NCBI GenBank assembly: GCA_031292555.1
Contig: JARLGV010000118.1
Coordinates: 1-47,304, forward strand
Direction: 5' to 3'
Length of the DNA stretch: 47,304 nt
Source of the DNA: Fimbriimonas sp.
GTDB lineage: Bacteria > Armatimonadota > Fimbriimonadia > Fimbriimonadales > Fimbriimonadaceae
The notes under the pieces were generated by a model. It was not told the origin of the DNA. It did no database searches and saw nothing but the letters and a program-made list of their open reading frames with translations. Position 1 is the stretch's first letter; every line of letters begins with the position of its first letter. The translations under genes were made by a program, and so were the position numbers. Below, piece by piece: positions 4,051 to 26,651 of this stretch.

Positions 4051-6849
4051 TTAGGACCAGGAGATTGTTAGCTTTTCGCCGGCCGGAAGCTTCAGGGTCT
4101 CGGCGAAGTGGACGGCGGCTTGCTCGCCGTCTGGTTTTGCCGTACAGGCCATGGACTTGCCACCTACACTTGCCTTCGCGCTCTGAATACCGCGCCCTAG
4201 CTTGATTTCTTGGATTGCCAGGATTCCCTCTCGACATTCGACCTCGAGTCTCTTGCCTTTCTGCGCAAGAACGCCGTAGGCGCCAGAAACGAACCAAGGG
4301 GCGATAAGGTTGTCGACCTTCGGGTCGATTGCGATCGATTGGCTGGGGACGTCCACCCGGAAGCCGGTCAACGCGAGAAGGGACGTCCAACTCGACATTG
4401 CGCGGAAGTAGTGATCTCCGCATTCGACGTGGTTCCAGCGCCGGCCGGCGCGGACGTACCGTTCGTGAACGGATCGGATCACCTCGAGGCCTTCGTCGAT
4501 CATGCCCATCTCGATCATGAGGGCGGCATTCGCGTATTCGATGCCGGTCCAGTTGCCGGCGGCTTGGAGATTTTGATGAGTCCGGAAGTGCTTCTTCTTG
4601 CCTTCCGGATAGGTTGCGTTCAAGAGTCCGCCCTCGAAGTTGAAGTTATGGGCATAGACCGACCGGAGCGCCTTACGGATGTGATCGATGGGAACCGCGT
4701 GTCCCAGACCCATCATGCCGGTGTACCATTCGCCGCTCAACTGGTCGCTCATGCAGCACTCATCGACTCCGTTCTCGCTGACCCACAGGTTGAAGTACTC
4801 CCCGTTCCATAGCCGGCTCACGAAGCTCTTGCTCGCTTTGGCAAGCAACCCGCTCCATCCTGACTCTTGTGCGGACTCGCCAAGATCCTTGGCGAGCCGA
4901 ATCGCTGCCTGCAGGGCGCCGAGCCATAGGCTGCAAATGTAGGCAGGCGATCCCTCCAGATCCCACTGGTCGTAGGTGTTGCGCCGGGTGTCGCTGTCCG
5001 GGATGCCGTCTCCGTCGGTGTCCAGCTTCTGGGTGCTGACCATGGCGCGCACGACGTGAGGCCAACTGTCCTTTGCGAACTGAGTATCGCCGGTCCACAT
5101 GTAGTCGCGGCAGACCATCATCACATACTGCGGGTTCATGTCGACCCGATCGAAGCCATTGTCAACGTGCAGCAGATCGGGCGCGAAGAAGTGGGGGATG
5201 CGTCCGTCCGCCCGTTGGTAGCCGGCGCCCATCTTGACCTGCCCCTTCTGAAGCTCGGGGAACAGGGCGATGATCGGGAACGAACCTTGATACGTGATGT
5301 CGGTTGTGTGCAATCCGCAGCATCCAAGACCTTCCCATATCGCGAACCGACCGTCTTTACACCACCAGCTCGACTTGATCAGGGTGCTCAGTTGGGCGGC
5401 CCAGGAGAAGGAAACCGCCTGGTCCAAGTTCGTGGTCAACATCGTCTCCGCGAAGTTCACCGTCTTCTGGCGATGCTCTCTGTGGTTGGACACGAGGAAA
5501 TCGTTGACATCGAGCGCGTTCGCGAACCAGTGCTCGTACTGGTGGCCGAGATTCGGACCCAGTGCGCTGAAGTGGTTCGGGAAGAACCAGGAGAGCACGA
5601 ATCGGACTTCCTTCTCCTCACCTGGCGCGAGGTGAATCGTCGATTCCAAAGCACAGTCTCCCCAACTGGAGCGATCTCGCTTCTCTCCGCTCATACCGTT
5701 CAGCCGGTCGCGGAACGCCTTCATCAAGTTCGAAAGGCCGGCCTTCGATTCCAATTGGGCTGGTTCGATCATCTCGACTCGGGCGATGAAGTCGTGGAAG
5801 AAGGCATCCGTTTTGAATTTGCCGAGCAGCCCCTTCAGATCGGCAAGACTCAACGCATCGATGTCGTCGTCGGAAAAGCCGACCAGAAGATCATCGACGG
5901 CGGAAGAACCCTCAAGCGAAGGCAACCGCCCCTCCCGATGGTAGGCGTGCAGATAGGAGAAGTGCGCCGAGCCGTACCCGTGGGATCCGCCCCAGCCACC
6001 GTTACTCAGATAGTTCCGATAGGTGCCCGCGATATAACTGCTATCTCCCCCCGTCACCGAAACCGCCATGCTGCCGTGGCACGACTTGCGTCCCCCGGTC
6101 GCACCGGTGGTTAAGGAGATCGTCGTCGTTTCCGCCTTTCGGACGACCTCATTGCGGAGTGCGCGCTGCGCTGCGCCGACCCCCAGCGGATTCCTCAGCG
6201 CACCCATCAACGATGCGGCGACCGCCTGTTTGCCGGTGTTTCGCACTTTGAACGCAACGGTGAATCCGGGGGTGCCGCTCGTCCGGGCGTCGCCGGGTAC
6301 GATCGGGGCGAACGCGATCCCGGTGATGCTCACCGGCAACGTCTCGTCGACGTAGTCCAGAGTCGCAAACGGAAACTTGCCGTCGAATTCGATCCCTTGA
6401 ACAGGCATCGCGTATGCGAGCGAATAGAGGTCATTCTGATCCTCGCGAATCCCCAGTCGCCGGAGCTTGGGCGCATGCCCGTCTTGGGCACAGCGGACGA
6501 AGAACTGGAGTCCGCCCGAGCCCATGTCTGGTCCCGGACCGGTCTCCTCGCTCGGCTGTTCGGGCGACCAAGCGCCCATGTTGAAGATCAGCCAATCGGC
6601 GAAGTAGCCGTCCGGTCGGATCTCGACCGAACCGGCCCCGATTCCTCCGAGCGGAATCCCGCTTGGATGTCCGACGGTTGCCCGGAAGGCAGTTGCGGTT
6701 TTGCCCTTCGCCCTCGCCTTGGCTGGCGTCTCGGCGACCCCCAGGGCCGCGAGCGACTCACCGAGTACCTCGCGCGCCATCAGCGCGCTCCCCAACGTTG
6801 TCAACCCCGCCCCTTTCAAGAAAGCCCGCCTATCGATCCCATGCGACAT
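4051..6849 (-). CDS. Tat-exported GH116 family glycosidase (beta-glucosidase/glucosylceramidase-like)
   Basis: A 932-residue protein. The N-terminus DRRAFLKGAGLTTLGSALM is a twin-arginine signal, so it is exported folded. An N-terminal beta domain (about 55-430, starting GHPSGIPLGGIGAGSVEI) is followed by an (alpha/alpha)6 barrel (about 450-860), the DUF608-plus-catalytic layout of GH116. E506 in IWEGLGCCGLHTTD is the likely nucleophile and D627 in NTYDQWDLEGSPAY the likely acid/base, by analogy with GBA2-type enzymes. It should act by a retaining mechanism on beta-glucosides or beta-xylosides in the periplasm or outside; the substrate is not determined. It lies 60 bp downstream of the aldo/keto reductase and may be co-transcribed, but it also has its own -10-like box 7 nt before ATG. 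Confidence 0.9.
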   Translation of the reverse strand: MSHGIDRRAFLKGAGLTTLGSALMAREVLGESLAALGVAETPAKARAKGKTATAFRATVGHPSGIPLGGIGAGSVEIRPDGYFADWLIFNMGAWSPEQPSEETGPGPDMGSGGLQFFVRCAQDGHAPKLRRLGIREDQNDLYSLAYAMPVQGIEFDGKFPFATLDYVDETLPVSITGIAFAPIVPGDARTSGTPGFTVAFKVRNTGKQAVAASLMGALRNPLGVGAAQRALRNEVVRKAETTTISLTTGATGGRKSCHGSMAVSVTGGDSSYIAGTYRNYLSNGGWGGSHGYGSAHFSYLHAYHREGRLPSLEGSSAVDDLLVGFSDDDIDALSLADLKGLLGKFKTDAFFHDFIARVEMIEPAQLESKAGLSNLMKAFRDRLNGMSGEKRDRSSWGDCALESTIHLAPGEEKEVRFVLSWFFPNHFSALGPNLGHQYEHWFANALDVNDFLVSNHREHRQKTVNFAETMLTTNLDQAVSFSWAAQLSTLIKSSWWCKDGRFAIWEGLGCCGLHTTDITYQGSFPIIALFPELQKGQVKMGAGYQRADGRIPHFFAPDLLHVDNGFDRVDMNPQYVMMVCRDYMWTGDTQFAKDSWPHVVRAMVSTQKLDTDGDGIPDSDTRRNTYDQWDLEGSPAYICSLWLGALQAAIRLAKDLGESAQESGWSGLLAKASKSFVSRLWNGEYFNLWVSENGVDECCMSDQLSGEWYTGMMGLGHAVPIDHIRKALRSVYAHNFNFEGGLLNATYPEGKKKHFRTHQNLQAAGNWTGIEYANAALMIEMGMIDEGLEVIRSVHERYVRAGRRWNHVECGDHYFRAMSSWTSLLALTGFRVDVPSQSIAIDPKVDNLIAPWFVSGAYGVLAQKGKRLEVECREGILAIQEIKLGRGIQSAKASVGGKSMACTAKPDGEQAAVHFAETLKLPAGEKLTISWS

Positions 6850-6909: not shown

Positions 6910-7896
6910 CTACATACCTTGTTGTGGCTCATCCCAAAGCGATTCCCATCCGGCAGCACCCTCCCACAGAAACACTTGCCCCTTAATGAGTCGGCAGTTC
7001 CGATCAATTCCAGATATCACCGTCATCTCAGCGGGGGTGAGCCGGGCATTTACCGCCGCATTGAAACTAGCTTCGTATTGACTTCTCTTCACCGAGAACG
7101 GGATGGGAACTTGACCACGCTGGACTGCCCAAGCGATGCAGACCGCAGCCGGGGTGATTTGGTGCGATTCTGCGATTCTCAGGATGACCGGATCCTCGAC
7201 ATCGGTCGAGTCATCCGGAGTTCGGTCACGCTCCGGACGGCTGGGAGACCCTAACGGAGAGTAACCGATCGGCACAATCCCATTGGCAAGCACAAAATCG
7301 AACAACTCGGGCTGCTGGAAGTGAGGATGGAGTTCCATCTCATTGGCGGCGGGCACAATCTCGGCTTCAAGGAGCACACCGCGAAGCTTCGGCACGGTCA
7401 TATTCGACGTACCAATATGGCGAACGAGTCCTCGTTCCACAAGGATTTCAAGTTGCCTCCACGTCTTCATGTAATTCTCGTGAATGAAGGGCCTGGCATC
7501 GGGATCACGCGAAGATACGTCGACTTTCGGTGCGTGATAGTTTGGGAAGGGCCAGTGGATGAGATAGAGATCCAGGTAGTCGAGTCGTAAGTCCCTTAGA
7601 GATCTCTCGCAGGCGGGAATGACATCGTCCTCACCGTGATGATTATTCCAGAGCTTGGACGTCACCCACAGGTCCCGCCGGTCGATGCCGCTCCTGAGTA
7701 TCGTTTCCAGCGACTCGCCGACCTGCCTCTCGTTTCCATAGACTTCAGCACAATCGAAGTGCCGGTAGCCGACCTCCGCGGCGCCTATGACCGCCTCGGC
7801 GATTTGGTCTGCGGTGTACTTGTCGGAGCCGAAAGTACCCAAGCCGATGGACGGCATTCTGGCCCCCGTTTTGAACTCCTTATACGGCACGTTCAT
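6910..7896 (-). CDS. Aldo/keto reductase
   Basis: A 328-residue NADPH-dependent oxidoreductase with the complete catalytic tetrad of the AKR superfamily: D48 and Y53 in FDCAEVYGNE, K81 in VTSKLWN and H114 in LYLIHWPF. The (beta/alpha)8 barrel is full length and there is no signal peptide, so it is cytoplasmic. ATG 7896 has a good GAGGAG site 8-9 nt upstream. Its promoter (TTGACA-17-CATAGT) overlaps an operator identical to that of the fucosidase gene at 26588, so it is probably controlled by the LacI repressor at 26652. A role in reducing or oxidising a deoxy-sugar intermediate, for example from L-fucose, is an inference from this co-regulation. Confidence 0.92.
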   Translation of the reverse strand: MNVPYKEFKTGARMPSIGLGTFGSDKYTADQIAEAVIGAAEVGYRHFDCAEVYGNERQVGESLETILRSGIDRRDLWVTSKLWNNHHGEDDVIPACERSLRDLRLDYLDLYLIHWPFPNYHAPKVDVSSRDPDARPFIHENYMKTWRQLEILVERGLVRHIGTSNMTVPKLRGVLLEAEIVPAANEMELHPHFQQPELFDFVLANGIVPIGYSPLGSPSRPERDRTPDDSTDVEDPVILRIAESHQITPAAVCIAWAVQRGQVPIPFSVKRSQYEASFNAAVNARLTPAEMTVISGIDRNCRLIKGQVFLWEGAAGWESLWDEPQQGM

Positions 7897-7945: not shown

Positions 7946-7987
7946 TGATCACGTTATCACTATGTGCAATCGAAGATCTGTTGTCAA
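7946..7987 (-). promoter_or_regulatory. Regulon B promoter and operator, copy 1
   Basis: On the minus strand TTGACA (7982-7987), a 17-bp spacer and CATAGT (7959-7964) run into an operator whose core is GTGATAACGTGATCAC (7945-7960), two half-sites with 7 of 8 positions symmetric around a central CG. The 19-bp block 7946-7964 is identical to 26588-26606. LacI-family repressors usually bind such CG-centred palindromes, and here the site covers the -10 box and transcription start. Confidence 0.85.
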
Positions 7988-8207: not shown

Positions 8208-11200
8208 ATGGTCAACTCGATATTTCCCAAGCAGGTCAATCGGCAAGCGTGCCGGATCTTGATAATCATTGCATTTGGATTTGCAGCGCAGGTCTCGCGA
8301 TCGAGCGATCTGCAAACGGTGCCGATTGCCCGCTGCATGCCGGATTCATCGACTTACTCGTTTCATTGGTGGCAGGACGGCTATCACAAACGGTCAGCCA
8401 ACGGCAGGAAGGTCCTTTGCTTCAGAGGTGGGACCTACGCCTTTGCGGTCGATGTCGAGTCGCTAGAGATTGTCCATATTGGCGCCCTTGGCAAGCGAGC
8501 AGGCATCGACGTCGCGGCTCGTCAAGGCAACGAAGTTCTAGCCTCCCTTCCCAGTGCTCGCCTTGACATGAGCTTCCGGTACGCTGGCGCCCTTTACACG
8601 TTCGCAGGAGTACACAGCATTTACGATGCGGCGGGCGAGAAGAAGCCGGGCTTTGACACGGTGAGGCTGGTTGAAGCCGGGAGGTTTGTCCAGCGGTTCT
8701 CGATTGAGGAACTCTCGTTCAAGGACGAACAGGGGCGGCAGTTTGTAGGCAAAGCTCGCCTAGTGATCGTAGCAAAGCCGAAATCGGCCGTCCTCACCCT
8801 TGAAGTCGTGCCAGACAAAGAAGGTCACATGGACGATGACGTCAACGTCGTTGATCTAGCGATCAGTGGCAAGAGCGTGCACGCGAAGGGATTTGGGAAA
8901 TTGGATTTGGGTCATATCTGGTGGCCGGCCGGCGAACCCGTCCGGGCGTCCGTGAATGCCCACTTCGGAGAAGATACAACGACAGAGCCGATCGTGGAAG
9001 GGAGGGTGGTGGATGGCGACGAGCTTCGGGCTCGAACCGTCTCGGAGGAGGGTTGGACCGAAGTCATCCTTCCGAGGCCACGTTTCCGCTCCACAGGTTG
9101 GAGCAGCTACTATCCGGCAGAAGAGCTCGATCGGCTAGAACGCTACCGCATCTCAGTGGAGAACCCTTCGACAGCAGCCAGGGATGCGCTGATTGTGTTC
9201 AGCCGCGATCACAGTTCGGATGGCGATACCGGATTCACGCCAATGATTCGTGACCTCGCAGGCAACCCGACAGGTATCCCGGTACAGCTTTCTAAAAACT
9301 GGCATCGCCAGGAGCAGCGCTTCAAGTTCGATGGCGGTTGGTTCCACGGCTATATCTCGCTGCGGCTGCCTCCAAGAGCCAAAACCACATTTGAGTACTC
9401 CATCGCCTTTGGCCGGTGGGGTGGGGTTTCCGCAGTTTCCCACTCTCAGCTCTCGGTCTTGGGATATGAAAAGGCCCCGTGGCAAGATTGGCAACAGGTT
9501 GCCATCGGCAGTTGGGGGGAGAACATCTGTTACGAACCAAGCCGCGCAACCCGATCCATGATTCTGGATTGGCGTCCAACCTTTGTTTACAACAAGACCG
9601 ATCCGACTCACTGGCTCGATTACGGCTGGACCAACAATGTCGGCGGCGGCGATTTCCTCGTCTACTACGACTCCCTCGGTCAGCTTCGACGGACGTCTCA
9701 AGCCAAAACCTACTACCGGGCGCACGGCCCGAATCTCTCTGACGTCGAGTTCCACGACAAATCCGACGACGGCGCTATCTCAGAAGCGATCCGCGTTCGT
9801 ACGGGAAGGACCGACGATCTACAACGCACATGGCACTCGTTTCGCTATGACGTCGTCAAGCCGGCGAAGTTTTCAAGGCTCGCCTTCTATCAGTTTGGAG
9901 CTGACGACTATCTTTGGTTTGCCACGGGAAAGTTCGCCTACGGAGAAGAACACGGCCTCACACGGATGTGGACGCCGCAGTCCGGAGGCAACAAGTATCT
10001 CGTTCCTCCTACACCTCTATCCGGCCGTTTACCTTGGATATCCATGCATGAGAGTCACGATATCAAGAAGCCGGAAGTGAACTTGTCGTGGGCCAACCGT
10101 GGAATGGTGATTCGTCATTGGCGCGCCAGGCTGGGTGGAAGGGACGTGCCATCGCCTTACTTTGCCAGCTTCGGAATCGACTACTGGATCCAGCCAGTCT
10201 CGAATATCGAACTCGTGCCTCCCCCGGATATCCACGAACTGGTTCCCGGCGACTATGTCGAGGCCGATATCGAGACGCTGATCCTGCCACAACGAGCAGA
10301 TGACTACTACGGGCCCAACAAGGAGCTAAGAATCGCGCTTGAATCGGAAGGCGATACCTGGAATTTGGTCTATCGTCAAGCCCTCGGCAACGACCTGCTT
10401 GTTGAAGCCCACCATGGAACCGTGATGGCAAACGTGCCAACCGTCGTGGCGCTGGACCGAAACGACGGTCAGGCAGATGTCACGATTCGTCGGGGTTGCG
10501 GATGGATCCCGGTGACCTTTACTGGATTGAAGTCCGCGGAAGGCTATGTTTTGTACGAATCGAAGAAAGGAGTCTTGAAATCTGTCGACCAATCGGTTCA
10601 TGGGCGCGACTTCTGGCAATGTGATTTCGACTCGATGTCCGGTACATATCGGCGAACCTACAACCTACCGGCCCAAGGCGAAATGCGACTGGTTCTCAAG
10701 CAGGGCGAAATGCCTGACGCTCCCGCCCGAGTGGCTGGTACCCCCACCGTTCGGCCCTTCGGAAATGTTGGACCAACCGCCAAATTGGAGATGGCCTCAG
10801 TCCTGCCTGGAGTCGCAATTCGATACACCTTGGACGGCACTGACCCGACATCCAAATCTTCGCTCTACGTTTCCCCTGTTCCTGTCACGGTCAGAGACCA
10901 TGTAACCGTGCGGGCGCGCCTTTTCAAAGACGGACTAAGACCCGGACCGATTTTCGAAGAGCACCTTTTCAACGCTTCCAAGGCCCCTCCTCGGCCACCG
11001 GTTCCTCCCCGACCGCCAGATCCAGACGTGTATCTAGACAGCCTCACGCCGGCTTTGAAGCGCATCCCTGGAATCGACAGCCACCACTTTCGATCGGATC
11101 TTGCGGTGAATATTGGCGCCTACGGTCAAAAGTTCACACGAGGTATTGGAACGCAAGGCGCTAGCGAAGTCGACTTTGCGATACCAGCCGGTAGCCATCG

Positions 11201-11483
11201 CTTTGTCGCCATTGTCGGTCTGAACGACACGGAGTTCAAGCACCCTTCCATGACAAGCCTCCACTTCCTCGTCTACGCGGACGACCAGTTGTTGGCCAAG
11301 TCCCCGCTCATGGAGGTCCAGCCTCCCGATCATCAGAGATTTGCTTTCGACCTCAGCATTCCTGCCGGCGCACGCGTGCTGCGGCTGGTGACCGACGACG
11401 ACGGCGACGGCCCAGAATTCGACTACGGAGACTGGGCCAACGCCGGGTTCATTGTGAATAGGAGTGGAAGCATGCACCGCTGA
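8208..11483 (+). CDS. Giant secreted protein of unrecognised family with CHB_HEX_C-like and NPCBM-like domains (paralogue 1)
   Basis: A 1091-residue protein with an export signal in residues 1-32 and an AGGA site before ATG 8208. Residues about 45-835 form a core I cannot place in any known family. It is clearly homologous to the protein at 15230-17644: shared landmarks include WW-DG near residue 55, PTGIPVQLSK, WGENICYE (about 437), WTNNVGGGD (about 474), HGPNL, FSRLAFYQFGAD and DQSVHGRDFWQ near the core end. After the core come a chitobiase/hexosaminidase C-terminal-type domain (about 843-918, VAIRYTLDGTDPT) and an NPCBM-like carbohydrate-binding domain (about 940-1085, FTRGIGTQGASEVDFAI). 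These extra domains and the regulon suggest a glycan-active enzyme or binder. The regulon A operator sits directly upstream. Confidence 0.85.
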   Translation: MVNSIFPKQVNRQACRILIIIAFGFAAQVSRSSDLQTVPIARCMPDSSTYSFHWWQDGYHKRSANGRKVLCFRGGTYAFAVDVESLEIVHIGALGKRAGIDVAARQGNEVLASLPSARLDMSFRYAGALYTFAGVHSIYDAAGEKKPGFDTVRLVEAGRFVQRFSIEELSFKDEQGRQFVGKARLVIVAKPKSAVLTLEVVPDKEGHMDDDVNVVDLAISGKSVHAKGFGKLDLGHIWWPAGEPVRASVNAHFGEDTTTEPIVEGRVVDGDELRARTVSEEGWTEVILPRPRFRSTGWSSYYPAEELDRLERYRISVENPSTAARDALIVFSRDHSSDGDTGFTPMIRDLAGNPTGIPVQLSKNWHRQEQRFKFDGGWFHGYISLRLPPRAKTTFEYSIAFGRWGGVSAVSHSQLSVLGYEKAPWQDWQQVAIGSWGENICYEPSRATRSMILDWRPTFVYNKTDPTHWLDYGWTNNVGGGDFLVYYDSLGQLRRTSQAKTYYRAHGPNLSDVEFHDKSDDGAISEAIRVRTGRTDDLQRTWHSFRYDVVKPAKFSRLAFYQFGADDYLWFATGKFAYGEEHGLTRMWTPQSGGNKYLVPPTPLSGRLPWISMHESHDIKKPEVNLSWANRGMVIRHWRARLGGRDVPSPYFASFGIDYWIQPVSNIELVPPPDIHELVPGDYVEADIETLILPQRADDYYGPNKELRIALESEGDTWNLVYRQALGNDLLVEAHHGTVMANVPTVVALDRNDGQADVTIRRGCGWIPVTFTGLKSAEGYVLYESKKGVLKSVDQSVHGRDFWQCDFDSMSGTYRRTYNLPAQGEMRLVLKQGEMPDAPARVAGTPTVRPFGNVGPTAKLEMASVLPGVAIRYTLDGTDPTSKSSLYVSPVPVTVRDHVTVRARLFKDGLRPGPIFEEHLFNASKAPPRPPVPPRPPDPDVYLDSLTPALKRIPGIDSHHFRSDLAVNIGAYGQKFTRGIGTQGASEVDFAIPAGSHRFVAIVGLNDTEFKHPSMTSLHFLVYADDQLLAKSPLMEVQPPDHQRFAFDLSIPAGARVLRLVTDDDGDGPEFDYGDWANAGFIVNRSGSMHR

Positions 11484-11739
11484 GAAGCCGATTGAACTCG
11501 GCGTGCAGGACTGGAGGAGGCTACGGGACCTAGCCTTGCGGTCAAAAACCAAGATCGCAGTTTGCCCCCAATTTAGCTGGCATCCAGATTTGGATCATTG
11601 CCAGGACGCCGTCCGATACGGGCTAATCGGCGACGTCGACTTCATCGAAATGACCGCCGGAATGAACATCGCCGGCCAAAGGAACGCATACGCTGAACTA
11701 CGGGCGGTCATTGCGGACAAACCCAGGCGGCGCGGCTAG
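11464..11739 (+). pseudogene. Internal fragment of a Gfo/Idh/MocA-family oxidoreductase
   Basis: The frame reads AEKPIELGVQDWRRLRDLAL, then IAVCPQFSWHPDLDHC, GLIGDVDFIEMTAGMNIAGQ. EKP followed by a helix and the (C/G)xQFxxHP strand is the hallmark of Gfo/Idh/MocA sugar dehydrogenases, where the EKP lysine is catalytic. The N-terminal Rossmann domain (GxGxxG) and the C-terminal half are missing. The fragment begins inside the last codons of the preceding gene (20-bp overlap, other frame), so a deletion seems to have joined the two. A functional 91-residue protein is unlikely. Confidence 0.65.
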
Positions 11740-11753
11740 ACGCCGATAGCCGA

Positions 11754-11773
11754 CCACTTCCCGCCGCAAGTGG
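11754..11773 (-). terminator. Weak hairpin after the ABC permease operon
   Basis: CCACTT and AAGTGG form a 6-bp stem with an 8-nt loop, 11 bp past the permease stop. There is no U-tract, so this is a weak candidate for the end of the regulon A operon. Confidence 0.3.
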
Positions 11774-11783
11774 AAGTTCGGGC

Positions 11784-12665
11784 TTATTCCTTGACGCCTC
11801 CGATCATAATTCCCTTCGCAAAGTACCGCTGGACAAACGGATAGAGGATGAGCATCGGCAGAACGGTGATCACGACGGTAGCGGCTTTGACCGTTTCCGG
11901 AGTGTAACTGGCAACGTCATGCGTGTTCTTCCCCATGTCGATGAGTCGGGTGCTGTTCTCGATGACAATGCGCTGGAGCATGTTCTGAAGCACCTGCTTT
12001 CGGTCGTCGGTGATATAGAGCATTGCATCGAACCACTGATTCCAGTGGCTTACTGCAGTCCACAGAGCAATCGTAGCGAGGACGGGCTTCGACAAGGGAA
12101 TAAAGAAACGGAAGAGGATCCTCCACTCCCCGGCGCCTTCGACTCGGGCTGCCTCCAACAGACTCTCCGGTATCTGCTGAAAGAAGTTCTTGACGACGAT
12201 CACATTGAACGCAGAAAGCGCTCCCGGGATGACGAGTGCCCAGATCGTGTTGATCATTCCGAGCGATCGGACCAACAGGTATCCGGGGACGATCCCCCCG
12301 CTGAAGATCATCGTAAGGAGGATGAGAAACAAGATCAAACTTCGGTGCGGAAGTTCCTTGCGAGCCAACGGATAGGCAGCCACGCATGTCGCCAGCACGG
12401 TTATCACCGTCCCCAGGGCCGTTCGAACGATCGAATTCCAAAGGCTTCGAAGGATGTCGGGACTTTCGAACACGATTCGATACGCGTTCCATGAGACTCT
12501 CCTAGGATATAGGTGAAGTGAGTGACTCTGCGCCTCGGCGGCTGTGCTGAGCGAAATGGAAAGGACGTAGAGAAAGGGATAGACTGCGAGCAACCCAAGC
12601 AAAGCCAGGACGAGAGTGTTCGCCCAATCGAACGCGTGCTCTCCAACAGAACGGCGATGTTTCAC
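11784..12665 (-). CDS. Carbohydrate ABC transporter permease (CUT1, LplC/YtcP-like)
   Basis: About 294 residues with six predicted membrane helices and the EAA loop ESLLEAARVEGAGEWRILF, which couples the permease to an ATPase. The ending GIMIGGVKE is typical of LplC-type permeases of oligosaccharide importers. I place the start at GTG 12665, because GTGA overlaps the upstream permease stop by 4 nt; a TTG at 12668 is the alternative. It is the last gene of the operon headed by the repressor at 20975. No ATPase gene is present in the window, as is common for CUT1 systems that share one ATPase. Confidence 0.92.
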   Translation of the reverse strand: MKHRRSVGEHAFDWANTLVLALLGLLAVYPFLYVLSISLSTAAEAQSHSLHLYPRRVSWNAYRIVFESPDILRSLWNSIVRTALGTVITVLATCVAAYPLARKELPHRSLILFLILLTMIFSGGIVPGYLLVRSLGMINTIWALVIPGALSAFNVIVVKNFFQQIPESLLEAARVEGAGEWRILFRFFIPLSKPVLATIALWTAVSHWNQWFDAMLYITDDRKQVLQNMLQRIVIENSTRLIDMGKNTHDVASYTPETVKAATVVITVLPMLILYPFVQRYFAKGIMIGGVKE

Positions 12666-13558
12666 CAAACCCCCTGTTCGCCGTGAGTCGCTCTCCTGGC
12701 AATCGAGTTAGCCGCAACTACGAGCAACAGGCTGACTACCGACTTGAACAATCCGGCGGCGGTCGCCAAACCAAAATCCATATCGATCATCCGCCTAAGA
12801 ACGTAGGTGTCGACGATGTCCGAAACGGAGTACACGACCGGGTTGTACATATTGTAGATCTGGTCGAACCCGGCGTTAAGTACGTTGCCGAGGCTAAGAA
12901 TCAGTAGCACGACGACCGTTGGGCTTAGGCTTGGCATCGTGATAGAACGCACTAGGTTCCATCTGCTGGCGCCGTCAAGCGATGCCGCTTCGTACAGGTT
13001 TCCGTCGATCCCGGCCAACGCCGCAAGGTATATCACGGCAGCATAACCTAGGCCCTGCCAGACGCCAGTCACGATCAGTACGACGATGAACCAAACCGGG
13101 TTCGACAGAAAGCTAATTGGGCTGTGGCCAAGCGATTGAATGAGTGAGTTCAGAGGCCCGTCCCCACCAAGGATCATCAGGAATATTCCACCCAATACCA
13201 CCCACGAAAAGAAGTAGGGCAGGTAAGTGAGCGTCTGGATTCCCCGCCTGAACCAGGTAACACGACATTCGTTGAGAAGGAGGGCGAGAATGATCGGCGC
13301 GAAGAACCCGAAGACCAATCGAAGTGCGCTGATTACAACGGTATTCCTTACGGCAAGCGGGAAGTCGGGGCTTCCGAAGAGACGCGTGAAATTGGCGAAC
13401 CCGACCCACGGACTGTGAAACATGCCTCGGCTAAGGCTGTACTCCTTGAACGCCAGCATCAAACCGACCATCGGTCCATAGCAGAAAATCAAGAAGAAGG
13501 CGAGGACGGGGACGATCATTGAGCAGAGGTCGCGGTGACGTCGATACTGTGCGATCAT
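12662..13558 (-). CDS. Carbohydrate ABC transporter permease (CUT1, LplB/UgpA-like)
   Basis: A 298-residue membrane protein with about six helices. It opens with a basic N-terminus and the segment FFLIFCYGPMVGLMLAFKEY typical of LplB-type permeases. The EAA motif is NLYEAASLDGASRWNLVRSI. The start ATG 13558 overlaps the stop of the solute-binding protein by 4 nt (ATGA), and its own stop overlaps the next permease. It should form the inner-membrane channel heterodimer with that permease and import the oligosaccharide delivered by the binding protein. Confidence 0.93.
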   Translation of the reverse strand: MIAQYRRHRDLCSMIVPVLAFFLIFCYGPMVGLMLAFKEYSLSRGMFHSPWVGFANFTRLFGSPDFPLAVRNTVVISALRLVFGFFAPIILALLLNECRVTWFRRGIQTLTYLPYFFSWVVLGGIFLMILGGDGPLNSLIQSLGHSPISFLSNPVWFIVVLIVTGVWQGLGYAAVIYLAALAGIDGNLYEAASLDGASRWNLVRSITMPSLSPTVVVLLILSLGNVLNAGFDQIYNMYNPVVYSVSDIVDTYVLRRMIDMDFGLATAAGLFKSVVSLLLVVAANSIARRATHGEQGVW

Positions 13559-15195
13559 CGCGCTCCAACCTTGCTGTAGATCTCCTTTGCCTCGGAGGCG
13601 ATTTCGTTGGCTTCCCTAGTTAGGATTTCTCCACCTCTTCGGTACCATTCCTTCACAAAACCATCGAATGCGTTCAGAGGCTTGTCGCCAGTGATGATCT
13701 GGATGAACGTCGTCGACTGAAGTTGACGCAGGTCCTTTAGATATGAGGCAGAGGATGGAACGACATCCGATTTTCCTATCGCGTTCTTAACTCCCCAAGC
13801 CGGGTCCTCGTATTGATGCCTAAAGGCCGCCTCACCCTGCCGAAGGAACTCCTGAGTCTCGGATAGGGGGATGGCGCAAGGCGAAAAGAAACCGTACGCG
13901 CTCTCGATGTTTGTGGAGAGCAGACTGCGCATGTCCTGTCCTCGAGCGTCAAAGGGAGGAAGAAGTACTATTCCCCGGTCTGGATTCCAATCCCATTCGA
14001 CACCACGCTGGCCGACTCGTGAGTGAAGGAACATTTCACGATCGGTGGCAAAACGCTCGAACATCTTGAGCACTCGAATCGCCTTCTCCGGCGATTTGGC
14101 GACATCCTTGCCAAACCAAATCACGTGACCCGGCCCTCCCCAAACTCGGGCACGTCGTTCTCCATCGAGGCCGATCAGCGGCTTACCTGCCGCCAGCTCT
14201 GCTCCTGGGAGGAGAATTCGCATCGTGGCTTCTCGGGCGTTGGGGTTGCTCTTGTCGAAGTCCGAAAAGGAACCGTAGGCGTACATATAGCCCGTTCTTC
14301 CGCTGTTGAACTTGCTGTCTTGAGGTGAATTACCCTCGGATGCAGCGGCAAAGTCCGGATCGATTAAGCCTTCCCTATACCATTGTCTGAGAACCGTCAG
14401 CGCGCGCTTGGCTTCCGGCTGAACGCCTCCCCAAACGACTTTGCCGTCCTTGACCATGAAATCCTGTTGGAGGATTCCGAACGCGGCAAACACTTCCCCA
14501 AACCAAACCGACCAATACACATCGGGACACATTCCGTAGGTGTCTTTCTGTCCATCTCCATCTGGATCCCCGTTCCGGAAGAACCGCAGAGCCCGATGCA
14601 TTTCCTCCAGCGTTTCCGGGGGCCGGGTGAAGCCTGCTTTGCGTAGCCAATCCATTCGCCAGATCGGGGCAGATGGAAACACGTCTGAAGCTGCGAATGT
14701 CGGGACACCGTAGTTATGCCCATTGACCGACGAGAAGAGCCAAGCTTCACGTCCATATCGGTTCAGGTATCGAACGTAGGTTGGGGCATAGCGCAGAATC
14801 GTCTCGTAAGGAAGTTCGAGGACATATCCCTGACGCACGTTTCGTCGCACCTGAGTTGGATCGCCGTCCCAGTTTACGTCGGGAACATCGCCGCCGGCGT
14901 ACATGAGTGGCATACGGTTTCCGTAGCTTGCCCAGTCAATGAACAGCGGTTTGAAATCAACATTGAATGCTCTTTCGAGATTGCGCTGGACCCAGGTTCC
15001 GGGCTGAGCGGACGGGAAAGCGGGCGAACCGCACCAAGAAATGCTGAGCTTCTTTGCAGGATTGTCGACAACCCGTGACCAATCCACCTTCGGCGGCTTT
15101 GGCAGAGAGTTTGGCGGGGCGGTCGGAACTAGGGCAATGCCTACGCCGATGATGAACACAATTCCAAGCACAAAGGAGGTTTCGCCTTTGGTCAT
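13555..15195 (-). CDS. Extracellular solute-binding protein of a CUT1 sugar ABC transporter (LplA-like)
   Basis: A 546-residue protein starting at ATG 15195 with GGAG 8 nt upstream. Residues 5-27 form an uncleaved-looking N-terminal helix or signal (FVLGIVFIIGVGIALV). The body has the two-lobed family 1 binding-protein layout; it is long for the group, as LplA-type proteins are. NGDPDGDGQKDTYG resembles the DxDxDG calcium loop often seen in this subfamily. WRMDWLRKAGFTRPPETLEE is a typical lobe-hinge segment. It captures a carbohydrate ligand, unknown here, for the two permeases downstream. It lies 34 bp after the unrecognised 800-residue protein, in the same operon. Confidence 0.93.
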   Translation of the reverse strand: MTKGETSFVLGIVFIIGVGIALVPTAPPNSLPKPPKVDWSRVVDNPAKKLSISWCGSPAFPSAQPGTWVQRNLERAFNVDFKPLFIDWASYGNRMPLMYAGGDVPDVNWDGDPTQVRRNVRQGYVLELPYETILRYAPTYVRYLNRYGREAWLFSSVNGHNYGVPTFAASDVFPSAPIWRMDWLRKAGFTRPPETLEEMHRALRFFRNGDPDGDGQKDTYGMCPDVYWSVWFGEVFAAFGILQQDFMVKDGKVVWGGVQPEAKRALTVLRQWYREGLIDPDFAAASEGNSPQDSKFNSGRTGYMYAYGSFSDFDKSNPNAREATMRILLPGAELAAGKPLIGLDGERRARVWGGPGHVIWFGKDVAKSPEKAIRVLKMFERFATDREMFLHSRVGQRGVEWDWNPDRGIVLLPPFDARGQDMRSLLSTNIESAYGFFSPCAIPLSETQEFLRQGEAAFRHQYEDPAWGVKNAIGKSDVVPSSASYLKDLRQLQSTTFIQIITGDKPLNAFDGFVKEWYRRGGEILTREANEIASEAKEIYSKVGAR

Positions 15196-15229
15196 GGCGC
15201 CACTCCGCTGTCCTGCTTGAGCAGGACGC

Positions 15230-17644
15230 TCACGATCCTCCGGTTAACTCGACCGTAATCCGTCGATCGCCGGATTCGTTTGCCGGAACGTTCAGGGTTA
15301 CGGTCCAAGTTCCGGCAATTGGGTCTCGGTCGGCCTGCCAGAAGTCCTGTCCATGAGTGCTTTGGTCGAAGGCGGCGCGCTTACCTGATTGGGTCAGGAA
15401 GAACTTCAGGTTGTTACAACTCTGGAGGCCGGAGAAACGTATGGGGATGAAGGCGAGACCACCCAAAAGAGTGACGGCAGCCCTGTCCTTATCAACCGCA
15501 ACTTCAATGGGGAGCGTGCCGACGAGTCTTCCAATGGACACGGAAGGGGTCACGGCCGCCTCCGCAGCCTCACGTAGAATCGGTTTCCAAGTATTCTCGC
15601 CAGCCCTTAAGGCTTCCCGCAATCCCTTGTTAGGGCCGTAATAGTCGGCGGCAAACATCGGCATCGTGAGGACCTCAACCGTCGCGTCGACATAATCGCC
15701 GGGCAGCAATTCGGTCAATCCAGGAGGGGGGCTGAGTTCTACGTTCATGCTCGGACGCTGGTCTTCTGTCCCAAAGAAGGAGAAGAATGGTCTGGGGACA
15801 TCCTTGCCGCCCAGCCGCGCCTTCCATGACCTTACGATGAGACCTCGATTCGCGGATGGTCCTGCCTTTGGATCGTAGACGGCTTCATGGAGGGAAACCC
15901 AGTTCGTCGCTCCGAGACCTTGGATCCCTTTCCGAGCATAGGCGCTTCCTCCCTTCTTGAACGACCATTCCTCAGTCAGACCGTTCTCCGTCCCCATCGC
16001 AAGGCGGTTGAATTGTGAATCGTTATAGCGGTCCGCACCAAGCTGGTAGAACGCAAGCCGGCTAAAGGGCGTTCGTTTCAAAACGTCGTATCGTATGTGA
16101 TGAACGGCACGATTGATGTCATCGGACCTAGGCGTTCTCGTATCGATACTCACTTGGATGTTGCCGTCTTGAGTGTCCCCTGCATACAACACGTGAGTCA
16201 GATTCGGACCATGTTCTAAAAAGGCGGTTCGTACTCGCGCGAAGTGTTGTCGAAGCCCGGATGGATCGATATAGACGAGGAGGTCCCCTCCGCCTACGTT
16301 GTTTGTCCAAAACCACTTCCGCTTTGATCCGCTGTTTGACCAAACCAAGACGGGGCGAAAATCGTCGATAAACCCTCTGTCTTGAGACATTTCGGCCTCA
16401 TAGCAGATGGATTCACCCCAACATCCAAGGGCCGCAACGTCCCAGGCGCCGTTAAAGCCCCACCCGATCAGACATAGCTGATCCTGCGAAGCACCAGGTA
16501 TGCCACCCCACATACCGTACGTAACATCGAACTCGAAGGCGGTCTTGCTGTGCGGGGGAAGGTGGAGCACCGTGATGTGGCGGGCCCAAGGGCTGTATTC
16601 GATGTCGTTTTTCTCATGAGCCTTGGGCCAGCACTTTGAGACTTGCATCGGGATGCCCGTCGGAACGCCCGCGACGCTGCGAATCATCGGAACCATGCCG
16701 GTGAGCCCGCCGACTGTCTGATCTCGCTCGAAGAGAAGACGGACGATCTTGGTTTTCGAGCTCGGATTCTCCAACGAAACACGGATCTGGTCCAGCCGGT
16801 TGACATCGCTCGCCTCGTCCCATTCCGTTTCGTCCATATGGACCTTCAACCATCCGTGCAGCGGATCGAAATCCGCCTTGAGTTGTTTGACTGGGGCATT
16901 GAGATTCGTTGCAGACACGATGACATCTTGAGCTTCCTCGTCAACCGATCCATCCCTAGGATAGTAGGAAACACTCGCGACCTGGCCAGGAGGCACGAAG
17001 TCTCTTGTGCCGGCAAATGGATGTCCGATACCAGAAACCGTCTTGCTGCCGGACTTCAAGCGAATCGACAAGAACGCGTTGTCGAGGTTGATGTGGGCCA
17101 CGAACGAAACTCGATCCGGCCAGACCACGATCTCAAGTCGCCCGACCGCATCCAGCTTTTCGCCCAGGTCGTTAACGAATTCAAGTTCCAGGATGTCCCA
17201 TCTTTGAAGGTATCTCCCACCCTCGATGAGACGGATAGGATAATTCGCATAATCGCGATAGTCCTTCATCTTCTTGATGCTCTGGGCGGCCCGGACGACG
17301 TGGTAAATCTGGTCGCGGACCCTCGCGGTGATTGTCAGCGAGGCCTCGCCCAAGCTCCTGACCGCGCTGTTGACTTCACGGGCCGCCGATTCGTACGACG
17401 CTCCTGACAGCGGTCCGAGAGCTAGAAGCTGCATGTGCTCTGGATCGATGGTCATCCCATAGTGGCCCGTTTGAAAGGCCAACACTCTACGACCGCTTGG
17501 ATCTGTGCCACGCCATCCATCTGCCCACCAAGACTGGGCATAGTCTTGCAAGGATGGGTACCGATCAACCGCTATGGCTGATGTTCGGTCTGCGGTTTGC
17601 GAACCGACTATTCCGGCAAGCGCGAGCATCGACGTTAGCATCAT
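15230..17644 (-). CDS. Large secreted protein of unrecognised family (paralogue 2 of the 8208 gene)
   Basis: About 804 residues from ATG 17644 (GTG 17647 directly precedes it). A short signal peptide (MLTSMLALAGIVGSQTADRT) leads into a domain homologous over its full length to the core of the 1091-residue protein. Shared landmarks are WWADGW near residue 40, PTGIPMQVSK, MWGGIPGASQ, WGESICYE (about 411), WTNNVGGGD (about 445), EHGPNL, FSRLAFYQLGAD, LPGDYVDATVE and DQSTHGQDFWQ. It ends where the other protein continues into its accessory domains. I recognise no catalytic motif. Being placed between a hydrolase and the ABC transporter suggests it degrades or holds the transported glycan outside the inner membrane. 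Confidence 0.87.
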   Translation of the reverse strand: MMLTSMLALAGIVGSQTADRTSAIAVDRYPSLQDYAQSWWADGWRGTDPSGRRVLAFQTGHYGMTIDPEHMQLLALGPLSGASYESAAREVNSAVRSLGEASLTITARVRDQIYHVVRAAQSIKKMKDYRDYANYPIRLIEGGRYLQRWDILELEFVNDLGEKLDAVGRLEIVVWPDRVSFVAHINLDNAFLSIRLKSGSKTVSGIGHPFAGTRDFVPPGQVASVSYYPRDGSVDEEAQDVIVSATNLNAPVKQLKADFDPLHGWLKVHMDETEWDEASDVNRLDQIRVSLENPSSKTKIVRLLFERDQTVGGLTGMVPMIRSVAGVPTGIPMQVSKCWPKAHEKNDIEYSPWARHITVLHLPPHSKTAFEFDVTYGMWGGIPGASQDQLCLIGWGFNGAWDVAALGCWGESICYEAEMSQDRGFIDDFRPVLVWSNSGSKRKWFWTNNVGGGDLLVYIDPSGLRQHFARVRTAFLEHGPNLTHVLYAGDTQDGNIQVSIDTRTPRSDDINRAVHHIRYDVLKRTPFSRLAFYQLGADRYNDSQFNRLAMGTENGLTEEWSFKKGGSAYARKGIQGLGATNWVSLHEAVYDPKAGPSANRGLIVRSWKARLGGKDVPRPFFSFFGTEDQRPSMNVELSPPPGLTELLPGDYVDATVEVLTMPMFAADYYGPNKGLREALRAGENTWKPILREAAEAAVTPSVSIGRLVGTLPIEVAVDKDRAAVTLLGGLAFIPIRFSGLQSCNNLKFFLTQSGKRAAFDQSTHGQDFWQADRDPIAGTWTVTLNVPANESGDRRITVELTGGS

Positions 17645-17683
17645 CACGAATTCACAAGAGGGTTTCGAACCGATCCCTCGACA

Positions 17684-18670
17684 TCATCCCGATACCAAGT
17701 GTCGGCCTAACCTCTCGAGTTGAGCCAGACCGTCTTCCCCTAGATGACCTTCTTGGTAGATAAGAGCGTTCAGCGTGACCGCGCCACGAACCGCCCTGCA
17801 GCGATCGACAAACGAGAACAGTTCTTCATCCGAATAACATGCCGGTGCGATCTCCCCTTCTTCGCCGTGGAACCAGCCCTGCATGTCTTTTCCATTGATC
17901 GGAACCATGGCGTGCCACTGGCAATTCGTTCCCGGCACAAAACGACCCTGAGGGAGGATTAAGGGGGAGTTGGGGTCGCGACCCAATCGGATCTTTCCGT
18001 CAATCAACGTCTCGACCTCACCAAAGAGGGCATCCTGCAAGGGAGTAACGGGTTGGTCGAAGCCACAGCAAAAGCAACCGTCGTTGAATGCGACTGCCGC
18101 ATTGGCATTCCCAAGTCGGGAGGCACGAATCCACTCAGGAAAGTCGTAAAGACGGTTGTTGAACGCTTCCCATCCGTAACAACCGTCGTACCACCAGCCG
18201 TCACAGAGATCTCCAAATCGAAGCGAATACTCCGCTATAAACTCCGTGTAGCGACGTTGGAATGCTGCCTGCTCAGTTCCGAGTTCATCGGTCCAGGCAA
18301 AGGCACGTTTGATGACTTCGTCTTGAGCATTCACTTCGCTCGGCAGATAGGCGATGAACCGCTTACCCATAGTCTTGACGCGCTGGGCGATCTCGAGGAC
18401 GAGATCTCGTTTGGAGCATCTGCCGACAGCCCCATATCGGTCGAGAACGGAGTTGGGGCTCGCGTAATATCCCATGTTCTGGCCGATCGTGAAGATCAGC
18501 CAGTCGGCCCGCGAGGATCCGAACTCCGAGATGAAGCAATCTAGGTCGAATGCCTCGACCGCTTTGTCGTTGTCGACTATCCGCTTACCGCGCTGCGGCC
18601 AAGGTCCAGGCGCGAGCCAATGTACCATCACCCCGAAGGAACCTTCGGACATCCAAGATGTACGATCCAT
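17684..18670 (-). CDS. GH29-like (alpha-L-fucosidase-fold) putative glycosidase
   Basis: A 328-residue protein whose barrel landmarks resemble GH29 fucosidases: FGVMVHWL near the N-terminus (family: FGxFxHWG) and DGWWYDGCYGW with D162 at the nucleophile position (family: WFDxW). The usual Trp-Phe-Asp is Trp-Tyr-Asp here, the protein is about 100 residues shorter than typical GH29 enzymes, and the C-terminal beta-sandwich is missing. CFCCGFDQP is an unusual cysteine cluster. No signal peptide is seen, so it is probably cytoplasmic. Its ATG overlaps the stop of the lipoprotein gene (TAATG). It may hydrolyse the imported sugar; the substrate is unknown. Confidence 0.68.
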   Translation of the reverse strand: MDRTSWMSEGSFGVMVHWLAPGPWPQRGKRIVDNDKAVEAFDLDCFISEFGSSRADWLIFTIGQNMGYYASPNSVLDRYGAVGRCSKRDLVLEIAQRVKTMGKRFIAYLPSEVNAQDEVIKRAFAWTDELGTEQAAFQRRYTEFIAEYSLRFGDLCDGWWYDGCYGWEAFNNRLYDFPEWIRASRLGNANAAVAFNDGCFCCGFDQPVTPLQDALFGEVETLIDGKIRLGRDPNSPLILPQGRFVPGTNCQWHAMVPINGKDMQGWFHGEEGEIAPACYSDEELFSFVDRCRAVRGAVTLNALIYQEGHLGEDGLAQLERLGRHLVSG

Positions 18671-18936: not shown

Positions 18937-18974
18937 GCATGTTGCCCGCGCGCTATTACGAACGGGCAACATGC
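18937..18974 (-). promoter_or_regulatory. Intercistronic hairpin between the pseudopilin and lipoprotein genes
   Basis: GCATGTTGCCCG (18937-18948) and CGGGCAACATGC (18963-18974) form a perfect 12-bp stem with a 14-nt loop. It fills the 65-bp gap after the pseudopilin stop. No U-run follows on the minus strand, so it is more likely an mRNA-stabilising or partial-termination element that raises upstream over downstream expression than a full terminator. Confidence 0.7.
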
Positions 18975-18983
18975 GATCCGCTC

Positions 18984-19898
18984 TCAGCGAGTTGCATCCC
19001 ATTGGTTGCTTTGTGGTTTGTTAACGGGGTCAGGGTTGGTCGATGCGGGATTCATCGACTTGGCGTGTCCGTCGGTAAAGCCGAAACTTGCCTGGTTCAT
19101 GAACACGGCGGTTACCGCACCATTGGGTCCCTTTGCTCCCGCGACGTTCGTGTAGCTGGCTCCCGATTGAACCATCTGAACCATGTCATATGGTGAGTCA
19201 AGCGGCCCGTTCGTCCCGTTCGGAATGATGCCGCCGCCTGATTGCCAGTCATACCAAGCAACGCCAGTGAATTGGGAGTTCACCCCGAAGTCCATCCGGT
19301 TGGGTAGGTAATTGCTGTCGCTCGCGTAAGGAAAGACGGAGTCTTTTTCAGTCAACATGACGGTCGTAGCTGGATTTGTCACGGCTCCGGCATTGACGCC
19401 CGTGCTTCCCAGTTGCCACCAAACGTCTGGACCTGTGATAGGGATGATCCCGTGGACCTGCCAGTGCCAGTCACTCGGGACCGGCTCAATTAAGCCATTG
19501 GCAACAAACGAAGTCTGTGGCCCGAACAACGCTTCGATAGCGTCGCCGGCCATTGTGATATCTCCCGCACTGTAGAAGAGATTTGTGCTCTTCTCATAGG
19601 GAAACACCTTCCTCATCCAGGTTGTTCCTGGCACCCATCCGTACACCTGGTTTACGTTGCTTCCATCGGCATCGTGTCCGGTCACGTACATATCGTCGTA
19701 GTCGCCGTTATACATGATCACGGCAAGGGCTTCCTGCTTGATTCCCGATAGCGCGCTGGTCTTTTTGGCGGCCAACTTCGCTTGGGCAAATACTGGGAAG
19801 AGGATTGCTGCGAGGATCGCGATAATCGCGATAACGACCAGCAGTTCGATGAGTGTGAACGCCTGTAGTTTTCGGTTATTGGAGTGAATGAATGGCAT
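18984..19898 (-). CDS. Type II/IV pseudopilin-like protein (DUF1559-type, H-X9-DG tail)
   Basis: About 304 residues from ATG 19898, which has AAGGAGA 8 nt upstream. A short leader is followed by FTLIELLVVIAIIAILAAIL, the prepilin methylation and transmembrane segment with Glu at +5, and FPVFAQAKLAAKKTSALSGI. The body is Trp-, Gly- and Asn-rich and ends with GFTDGHAKSMNPA, the DG-containing C-terminal signature of DUF1559-like pseudopilins abundant in Armatimonadota and Planctomycetota. It would be processed by a prepilin peptidase and displayed on the envelope. It lies directly behind the LacI gene in a sugar-uptake operon, which suggests substrate binding at the surface rather than motility; that is an inference. 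Confidence 0.9.
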   Translation of the reverse strand: MPFIHSNNRKLQAFTLIELLVVIAIIAILAAILFPVFAQAKLAAKKTSALSGIKQEALAVIMYNGDYDDMYVTGHDADGSNVNQVYGWVPGTTWMRKVFPYEKSTNLFYSAGDITMAGDAIEALFGPQTSFVANGLIEPVPSDWHWQVHGIIPITGPDVWWQLGSTGVNAGAVTNPATTVMLTEKDSVFPYASDSNYLPNRMDFGVNSQFTGVAWYDWQSGGGIIPNGTNGPLDSPYDMVQMVQSGASYTNVAGAKGPNGAVTAVFMNQASFGFTDGHAKSMNPASTNPDPVNKPQSNQWDATR

Positions 19899-19949
19899 CA
19901 AGATTATCTCCTTCGATTTCTTGGCCTCAATTGAGGCGGTGACGAGTGG

Positions 19950-20975
19950 TCAACATTGAACTGGTCCGGTCGACTGCCGGAGCATGAGTTGGGGCTCGAT
20001 CGTCAAGGAACGAGTCTCTGTTTCCTCTCCCGACATGGCCAATTTGAGTAGATTGGCTGCCTCGACCGCAGCCTCACGCAGGGGTAGAGCGATGCCGCTC
20101 AAGGATGGATCCGCGTAGGCGCCGATCCAACTCGTATCACAACTCACGATTGAAACATGTTCGGGGACACTGAAACCCGCATTCCTGATTCCACGAAAAG
20201 CCGCCAGGCCGTGAATATCGTTGAGGCATACGAAGGCCGTTGGCGCCTCACCTGATTTCATCATCGCCTCGACCCTTTGGGGGACTTCCTCATGGTCGGA
20301 TTCGAGCGTTACAAGCGAATGTACGCCACGGGAGCGAAGGGCGTCGATGGTCGCCTCACGCCGAGAGTCATTTCGAGCAAACATCCGATCAACGAAGCAA
20401 AACCGCCTATGCCCCATGTCAATCAATTTCTCGACCGCATAGCGCGTGCCCGAATACAGGTCGATGCAGATCGAGTAACTGTTCGGCAATCCGCCGAGTT
20501 CACGCATTGCGCTGTCGATCCCGAAGTAGACCGTCGGAGTACCTTGGAGCAGGGGCTGGAACTTCGGCAGGTCAGAGGCATGCTCCAGGTGAACGACCAT
20601 TCCGTCCACCTGCCACTCGATCAGTTCCTGTAATGCAAGTGCGGAAGCGTCTCTGCCCTTTTCGAAGTCGACAACCTGGAATACCAAGCGCAGACCCTGA
20701 TCTTGGATCAACTCGTTCAGGGTCGCCGTAAGTGATGAGAAGAACGGTTCCCGTATGCTTGGGATGATCAGGCCGACCAATCCGCTTCGCCGACGCGCCA
20801 TATGTTGGGCGATCCGGTTGACTCGGTAGCCTAACTCCTCAGCCGCCTTGAGGACCCTTTGCCGAGTCACTTCCGGGATGGACTCGTCGGCGCCATTGAG
20901 GACGTAGGACGCGGTCGACCGGGCAACTCCGGCGGCTTCCGCAACATCAATCATTCTTGCTCTCTGGATTTTCAT
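19950..20975 (-). CDS. LacI-family transcriptional repressor, regulon A
   Basis: A 341-residue protein. The N-terminal helix-turn-helix IDVAEAAGVARSTASYVLNG (about residues 9-28) and hinge RVNRIAQHMARRRSG are followed by a periplasmic-binding-like sensor domain (GLVGLIIPSIREPFFSSL to the C-terminus). The Ala in STASYVLNG replaces the more usual V or I of the recognition helix, in line with an unusual operator. ATG 20975 lies 12 bp from the A-type palindrome at 20988, so it probably represses itself and the operon behind it. The same palindrome precedes GH31 (21144) and the 1091-residue gene (8143), which marks them as its regulon. The effector sugar is unknown. Confidence 0.95.
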   Translation of the reverse strand: MKIQRARMIDVAEAAGVARSTASYVLNGADESIPEVTRQRVLKAAEELGYRVNRIAQHMARRRSGLVGLIIPSIREPFFSSLTATLNELIQDQGLRLVFQVVDFEKGRDASALALQELIEWQVDGMVVHLEHASDLPKFQPLLQGTPTVYFGIDSAMRELGGLPNSYSICIDLYSGTRYAVEKLIDMGHRRFCFVDRMFARNDSRREATIDALRSRGVHSLVTLESDHEEVPQRVEAMMKSGEAPTAFVCLNDIHGLAAFRGIRNAGFSVPEHVSIVSCDTSWIGAYADPSLSGIALPLREAAVEAANLLKLAMSGEETETRSLTIEPQLMLRQSTGPVQC

Positions 20976-20987
20976 CTTCTCAGCCGA

Positions 20988-21007
20988 CTACTTACGCGCG
21001 TCAGTAA
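20988..21007. promoter_or_regulatory. Regulon A operator, copy 2 (LacI operon)
   Basis: CTACTTACGC-GCGTCAGTAA matches the perfect palindrome at 8143 in 18 of 20 positions. On the minus strand it lies 4 bp behind a possible promoter, TTGCGT (21035-21040), 17-bp spacer, TACCAT (21012-21017), so a bound repressor would block initiation of its own operon. Confidence 0.85.
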
Positions 21008-26629: not shown

Positions 26630-26639
26630 GCATTCCAGC

Positions 26640-26645: not shown

Positions 26646-26651
26646 GATCCG

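Follow-up and report, generated by a model that had tools for sequence, protein, structure and literature searches.

The window that we analyzed, a stretch of 47,304 nucleotides from Fimbriimonas sp., encodes two proteins, P0001 and P0002, whose common core defines a new family of predicted carbohydrate-active enzymes built on a known fold, this novelty being relative to Pfam, NCBIfam, and PDB. We think it reasonably probable that both are secreted enzymes of a family new to these resources, cleaving polysaccharides and feeding an oligosaccharide importer under the control of a LacI-family regulator. This explanation builds on computed homology, domain content, fold prediction, conservation, gene order, and operator-like sites, from which we infer the activity, the mechanism, the substrate, and the regulation. 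The features on which the argument depends are collected in Table 1.

Table 1. Genes, predicted domain, and operator-like sites of the window
Feature	Position	Strand	Remarks
GH116 (DUF608) enzyme	4051–6849	−	Pfam; with aldo/keto reductase, divergent from P0001
Aldo/keto reductase	6910–7896		Paired with GH116, divergent from P0001
Putative LacI-type operator, perfect 20-bp palindrome TTACTGACGCGCGTCAGTAA	8143–8162		Ends 45 nt before the P0001 ATG; 0 expected
P0001, secreted core protein	8208–11483	+	1091 aa; core about residues 45–835, then CHB_HEX_C_1 and NPCBM
ABC sugar permease	11784–12668	−	Overlaps the other permease gene (12662–13558)
ABC sugar permease	12662–13558	−	Overlaps the solute-binding protein gene by 4 nt
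Extracellular solute-binding protein, AlgQ/Smon0123/FusA class	13555–15195	−	34 nt downstream of P0002
P0002, secreted core protein, core only	15230–17647	−	805 aa from GTG; 804 from an ATG one codon on
Galactose-mutarotase-like beta-supersandwich domain (predicted), P0002 residues 372–718	15494–16534	−	AlphaFold2 and VIA-align
GH29-related protein (remote)	17684–18670	−	36 nt upstream of P0002; alpha-L-fucosidase 9pnj, E 5.5e-12; Pfam 0.056
Prepilin-type N_methyl protein	18984–19901	−	Inside the P0002 operon
LacI-family regulator, putative owner of the palindrome	19950–20975	−	Heads the P0002 operon; LacI 2.4e-13, Peripla_BP_3 5.3e-28
Second palindrome copy, 2 mismatches	20988–21007		Directly before the LacI gene of the P0002 operon; 0 expected
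Third palindrome copy, core TGACGCGCGTCA	21146–21161		Before the GH31 gene
GH31 alpha-glycosidase, putative member of the same regulon	21308–23953	+	E 6.6e-89

Two secreted proteins and their relatives

Aligned over 813 columns, P0001 and P0002 show 35% identity with 53% positives (BLASTP, 471 bits, E 1e-155). The alignment runs from just behind the signal peptide to the DQS-HG-DFWQ end of the core, as a preliminary description of this DNA had claimed, and lies far beyond chance. Both proteins begin with a hydrophobic, signal-peptide-like N terminus, from which their secretion was judged by eye. The same description had placed CHB_HEX_C-like and NPCBM-like modules in the first protein only. 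Pfam agrees, finding CHB_HEX_C_1 at residues 856–915 (E 7.8e-12) and NPCBM at residues 969–1081 (E 1.1e-18) of P0001 and neither of them in P0002. The word "giant" is strong, since such lengths are ordinary for secreted enzymes, and "paralogous" can be kept in a loose sense. The genome (6.46 Mb) contains exactly two core copies, P0001 and P0002, which do not group on a maximum-likelihood tree of the supersandwich domain, where the starred branches force two changes. Their placement is unsure because both are long branches. Separate acquisition is therefore as likely as duplication in place, and a recent duplication is without support.

The cores of both proteins match no family in Pfam 2025 or NCBIfam 2026, and their matches among PDB sequences concern the NPCBM module or are noise. 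Twenty-five relatives gave the same result for the core against Pfam and PDB, so the initial statement that the proteins belong to no recognised family stands for these resources. PADLOC returned no match. Two kinds of PDB hits were set aside: the LamG matches of the 80-row profile, which stem from an inserted domain and not from the core, and a 47-residue match between the core profile and EF-Tu (E 0.011), taken as chance.

The core family is not an orphan. One scan of species genomes yielded 169 stretches encoding candidate relatives, the best 80 of which (L005–L084) were kept for analysis. These 80 come mostly from Verrucomicrobiota and Planctomycetota, with a few each from Armatimonadota, Lentisphaerota, Hydrogenedentes, and Bacteroidota; among 32 pattern matches in viral contigs, there was no relative. 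Outside the window, none of 60 genomes of the same genus (19), family (17 more), and order (24 more) carries a copy, and neighbouring species therefore gave no synteny. Across Armatimonadota, the core profile has matches with E < 1e-10 in 22 of 291 genomes, in some of them solely through the sister family described below. The architecture of the relatives varies. A long insert at about residue 190 of P0002 is present in 48 of the 80 aligned sequences (Laminin_G_3 in the examples scanned), and a relative from Rubritalea marina, of 1969 aa, has Ig-like domains following the core. None of the other sequences among the 80 extends at its C terminus as P0001 does.

The core profile also gave weak matches (E 1e-11 to 1e-22), and these led to a sister family (L101–L128), found with a full-length query in 35 of the 291 Armatimonadota genomes, some of these matches covering its C-terminal domain alone, and absent from the genome that carries the window. 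When 25 core sequences were compared with 21 sister sequences profile to profile (hhalign), the probability was 100%, with E 1.2e-41 over 673 columns at 19% identity. Judged from these alignments, the sister family is a true homologue of the core over its whole length. Twenty-one of its members have no match in NCBIfam or PDB, nor do the four of them that were compared with Pfam. Some members add a C-terminal domain, located at about residues 757–1015 of the L101 query protein; this domain also occurs in separate frames of other genomes, often of about 300 aa.

Predicted fold and conserved residues

The preliminary description had called for structure prediction and fold comparison, and these produced a confident model whose predicted fold is of the supersandwich type. 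The AlphaFold2 model of P0002, computed from 80 sequences, is nearly all beta (mean pLDDT 89.2, pTM 0.92), and the supersandwich domain modelled alone keeps a pLDDT of 88.2 and a pTM of 0.90. Foldseek against PDB returned weak whole-chain matches only, with OpgG among the best (E 1.8e-4). With VIA-align, the top match of the whole model is the lyase PL26 5xqg (Z 16.3, 242 residues, 3.5 A), and the others include OpgD 9e08 (Z 15.8, 256 residues, 3.7 A), GH38 C-terminal domains (Z 14–15), GH174 8jd7 (Z 13.8, 253 residues, 4.1 A), aldose-1-epimerase 3ty1 (Z 13.5), and PL17 and PL8 (about 13). For the isolated domain, OpgD/OpgG come top among the matches listed (Z 15–16, about 245 residues, 3.7–4.1 A), next are GH38, GH65, and galactosaminidase domains (Z 14–15), and PL26 is not among the 50 matches listed. 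A family's absence from these VIA-align listings does not count against it. The accessory domains of GH38, GH36, GH65, and LacZ also match the fold (Z 13–15).

The galactose-mutarotase-like supersandwich has a catalytic role in GH186, GH174, PL26, and aldose epimerases, and in GH38, GH36, GH65, and LacZ it serves as an accessory domain. Sharing this fold is no proof of function, and the enzymatic reading is weakened because the same fold is non-catalytic in so many proteins.

Conservation across the two families narrows the search for an active site. In P0002 numbering, the core and the sister family have in common K338, N339, E412, C415, D429, R431, P481, D510, R513, R606, G650-D651, and Q771. 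Five of these, K338, E412, D429, R431, and D510 (K363, E438, D454, R456, and D537 in P0001), occur without exception in the 80 core sequences and in all sister sequences that cover the position. E412, D429, R431, and D510 correspond to residues 41, 58, 60, and 139 of the domain, in its loop-rich first half, and K338 lies just before it. This pattern points to Lys338, Glu412, Asp429-x-Arg431, and Asp510 as active-site candidates. Cys415 was rejected as an obligatory catalytic residue, being Thr in 2/80 sequences.

The blocks first described as invariant are so in part. The Glu of WGE, the Asp of GGGD, and the W-x2-N-x-G-G block are each conserved in 80/80 core sequences, and in HGPNL the Pro alone is invariant (His in 22/80, Asn in 7/80). 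As for the two acidic residues then proposed to be catalytic, the WGE Glu is conserved superfamily-wide and keeps its candidacy. The GGGD Asp (D455) is invariant in the core family, but the sister family has Gly, Ser, or Arg at this position, and for this reason we rejected the Asp as a superfamily-wide catalytic residue. On conservation, Asp510, Asp429, Arg431, and Lys338 are stronger candidate partners of the WGE Glu.

P0002 itself departs from its relatives at three positions. It is the sole one of the 80 with N339C and with H341P, and it has Gln at position 388, where 78 of 80 have His. These substitutions make it possible that P0002 is altered in function, and it may differ in activity or specificity.

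Operon, operator-like sites, and gene neighbourhoods

On the minus strand, the genes follow each other in the order LacI regulator, prepilin-like protein, GH29-related protein, P0002, solute-binding protein, and two permeases. The solute-binding protein is similar (E 1e-12 to 1e-14) to oligosaccharide binders such as AlgQ1/AlgQ2, Smon0123, and those of the FusA type. Around P0001 and P0002 lie genes for GH116, aldo/keto reductase, GH31, GH29, GH78, and GH10 proteins, the GH10 enzyme (43889–46219), with its CBM_4_9 module, belonging to the same CAZyme-rich region. Elsewhere in the window (33299–36479), a NanM-like kelch protein, a DHDPS-family aldolase, and an MFS transporter stand in a row, like a catabolic cluster for sialic acid or a related keto-acid sugar. 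A perfect 12-bp inverted repeat (GCATGTTGCCCG/CGGGCAACATGC, 18937–18974) follows the prepilin-like gene, in the 314-nt gap before the GH29-like gene.

The 16-bp core of the palindrome listed in Table 1 occurs, with at most 2 mismatches, at five places in the genome, three of which are in this window. As these three stand at the promoters of P0001, of the P0002 operon, and of the GH31 gene, we infer that one LacI regulon joins them. P0001 and P0002 would thus probably be switched on together with the sugar-uptake genes. The two other palindrome-like sites in the genome, each with 2 mismatches, are on contig 16 at 4815 (L138) and contig 57 at 12241 (L140).

A second LacI-type operator-like site, TGATCACGTTATCA, is present twice in the window (0.06 expected). 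One copy (7946–7959) precedes the aldo/keto reductase–GH116 pair. The other (26588–26601) lies between a divergent GH29 gene (25176–26762, minus strand) and a LacI gene (26652–27677, plus strand), inside the 5' end of the GH29 open reading frame as mechanically called. These sites suggest a second, interleaved LacI regulon.

Among 527 open reading frames neighbouring the 80 relatives, two clusters recur conspicuously. S1-type sulfatases are found at 19/80 loci and AXE1-like alpha/beta-hydrolase esterases at 17/80, both being enriched as immediate neighbours of the core gene (p 0.02 and 0.03, respectively, by Fisher's test). This enrichment is modest, and for sulfatases it is supportive only because they are common in these genomes, with 37 to about 100 per genome in 9/10 genomes checked. 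Fusions also occur: the core of L079 is joined to an esterase, and in L017 (5007–10220) a single open reading frame of 1738 aa, possibly an assembly or frame artefact, joins an AXE1-like esterase, an Alginate_lyase domain (PF05426, E 1.8e-21), and the core.

Proposed function and likeness to known enzymes

P0001, P0002, and their relatives show general features of carbohydrate-active enzymes, i.e., secretion, glycan-binding modules, and a gene context of glycan degradation. In the explanation that we favor, P0001 and P0002 would cleave a complex heteroglycan, which is probably charged or acylated, into oligosaccharides outside the cytoplasm. The AlgQ-class ABC importer encoded in the P0002 operon would take up the products, and the GH31 and GH29-like glycosidases would finish them. 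The active site would be on the loop-rich face of the beta-supersandwich, where Glu412 and Asp510 would form the carboxylate pair, the site being shaped by Asp429-x-Arg431 and Lys338 and, in the core family only, by Asp455. The local LacI regulator would probably act on the 20-bp palindrome to control expression. The preliminary description had proposed a possible new glycoside hydrolase or lyase family. This proposal receives indirect support from the predicted fold, from the putatively co-regulated glycoside hydrolases and importer, and from the sulfatases, esterases, and Alginate_lyase domain of the relatives, the activity itself being a prediction. Hydrolysis appears more likely than beta-elimination, because Glu412 and Asp510 rank with the most deeply conserved acids close to the predicted active face.

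Elimination would make the core a polysaccharide lyase, removing a proton next to a uronic acid and delivering unsaturated oligosaccharides to the AlgQ-class importer. Arg431 or Asn450 would neutralise the carboxylate, and Lys338 or a Tyr/His would act as the base. The top whole-model match to PL26, the matching sheets of PL17 and PL8, the Alginate_lyase fusion of L017, and the role of AlgQ and Smon0123, relatives of the solute-binding protein, in importers of alginate and glycosaminoglycan oligosaccharides all speak for it. We nevertheless hold it to be unlikely: the deepest-conserved polar residues include two carboxylates (E412 and D510), a hydrolase-like feature, His388 is Gln in P0002, and Tyr541, invariant in the core family, has no conspicuously conserved counterpart in the sister family. 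The GH29, GH31, GH78, and GH116 neighbours would suit a neutral or 6-deoxy-sugar-rich glycan equally well. It is more doubtful that the core is a large non-enzymatic protein of the cell surface, binding glycans as a scaffold and capturing polysaccharide for other enzymes. The fused LamG, NPCBM, and CHB_HEX_C_1 binding modules and the frequent accessory role of mutarotase-like sheets are what such a protein would have, but its separate binding modules would then be redundant, and where acidic, Lys, and Arg residues stay strictly conserved between two clades with 19% identity, a catalytic site is a more usual explanation than a binding surface.

A further alternative, compatible with the favored explanation, touches its novelty: the core could already belong to a CAZy family that has neither a Pfam or NCBIfam model nor a solved structure. 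Several recent CAZy families have no Pfam model, and our comparison took in Pfam, NCBIfam, and PDB, thus covering the CAZy families represented there. Yet with E up to 10, neither the core nor the sister profile convincingly matches any PDB chain, those of GH174, GH186, and PL26 included, and we found no published description of the core family; a prior classification seems rather improbable.

If the polysaccharide-cleaving enzymes that we propose are active, the core would found a CAZyme family whose candidate members number at least 169 in a single species-level collection and are concentrated in phyla that are known to degrade sulfated and acylated polysaccharides yet are rich in unannotated genes. 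Function and substrate are directly testable through the specific residues, the natural pair of proteins that differ in their accessory modules, and the operator-linked importer. More tentatively, with chances that we put somewhat below even, the core and sister families could be the first two members of a new clan of glycan-cleaving enzymes, combining the supersandwich with a new catalytic arrangement (Glu412, Asp510, Asp429-x-Arg431, Lys338). This clan would occur mainly in Verrucomicrobiota, Planctomycetota, and Armatimonadota and act on polysaccharides whose degradation also needs sulfatases and esterases. The sister family, homologous to the core over the whole length, keeps K338, N339, E412, C415, D429, R431, D510, and R513 and lacks Asp455.

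Among known enzymes, PL26 exo-rhamnogalacturonan lyase (5xqg) is the top match of the whole model, yet it shares 9% identity with the core and is absent from the PDB sequences that this core's profile matches with E up to 10. The best fold match of the isolated domain is GH186 OpgD (9e08; Z 16.1, 247 of 347 residues, 3.8 A). Like the core proteins, the GH186 beta-1,2-glucanases OpgD/OpgG are secreted, and their supersandwich is the catalytic domain, in which the general acid D388 acts with D300 and R359 (OpgD numbering; PMC10514313). Identity to the core is again 9%, and profile–profile comparison with E. coli OpgG/OpgD (hhalign, two-sequence template) gave no homology signal (probability 0.15%). 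The MdoG family (PF04349, GH186) was found in none of the 291 genomes of the phylum, and Pfam MdoG matches neither P0001 nor P0002. Around Arg332, the D-x-R-P likeness to OpgG was dropped because the underlying strand order does not fit. As for the GH174 endo-1,3-fucanases, 8jd7 and 9k1g are absent from a core-profile hmmsearch of all PDB sequences at E up to 10, and 8jd7 has 8% identity to the core. Its fold matches with Z 12.9–13.8 over about 250 residues, and the parallel with a fucanase extends to the gene context, with GH29-type fucosidases nearby in the window.
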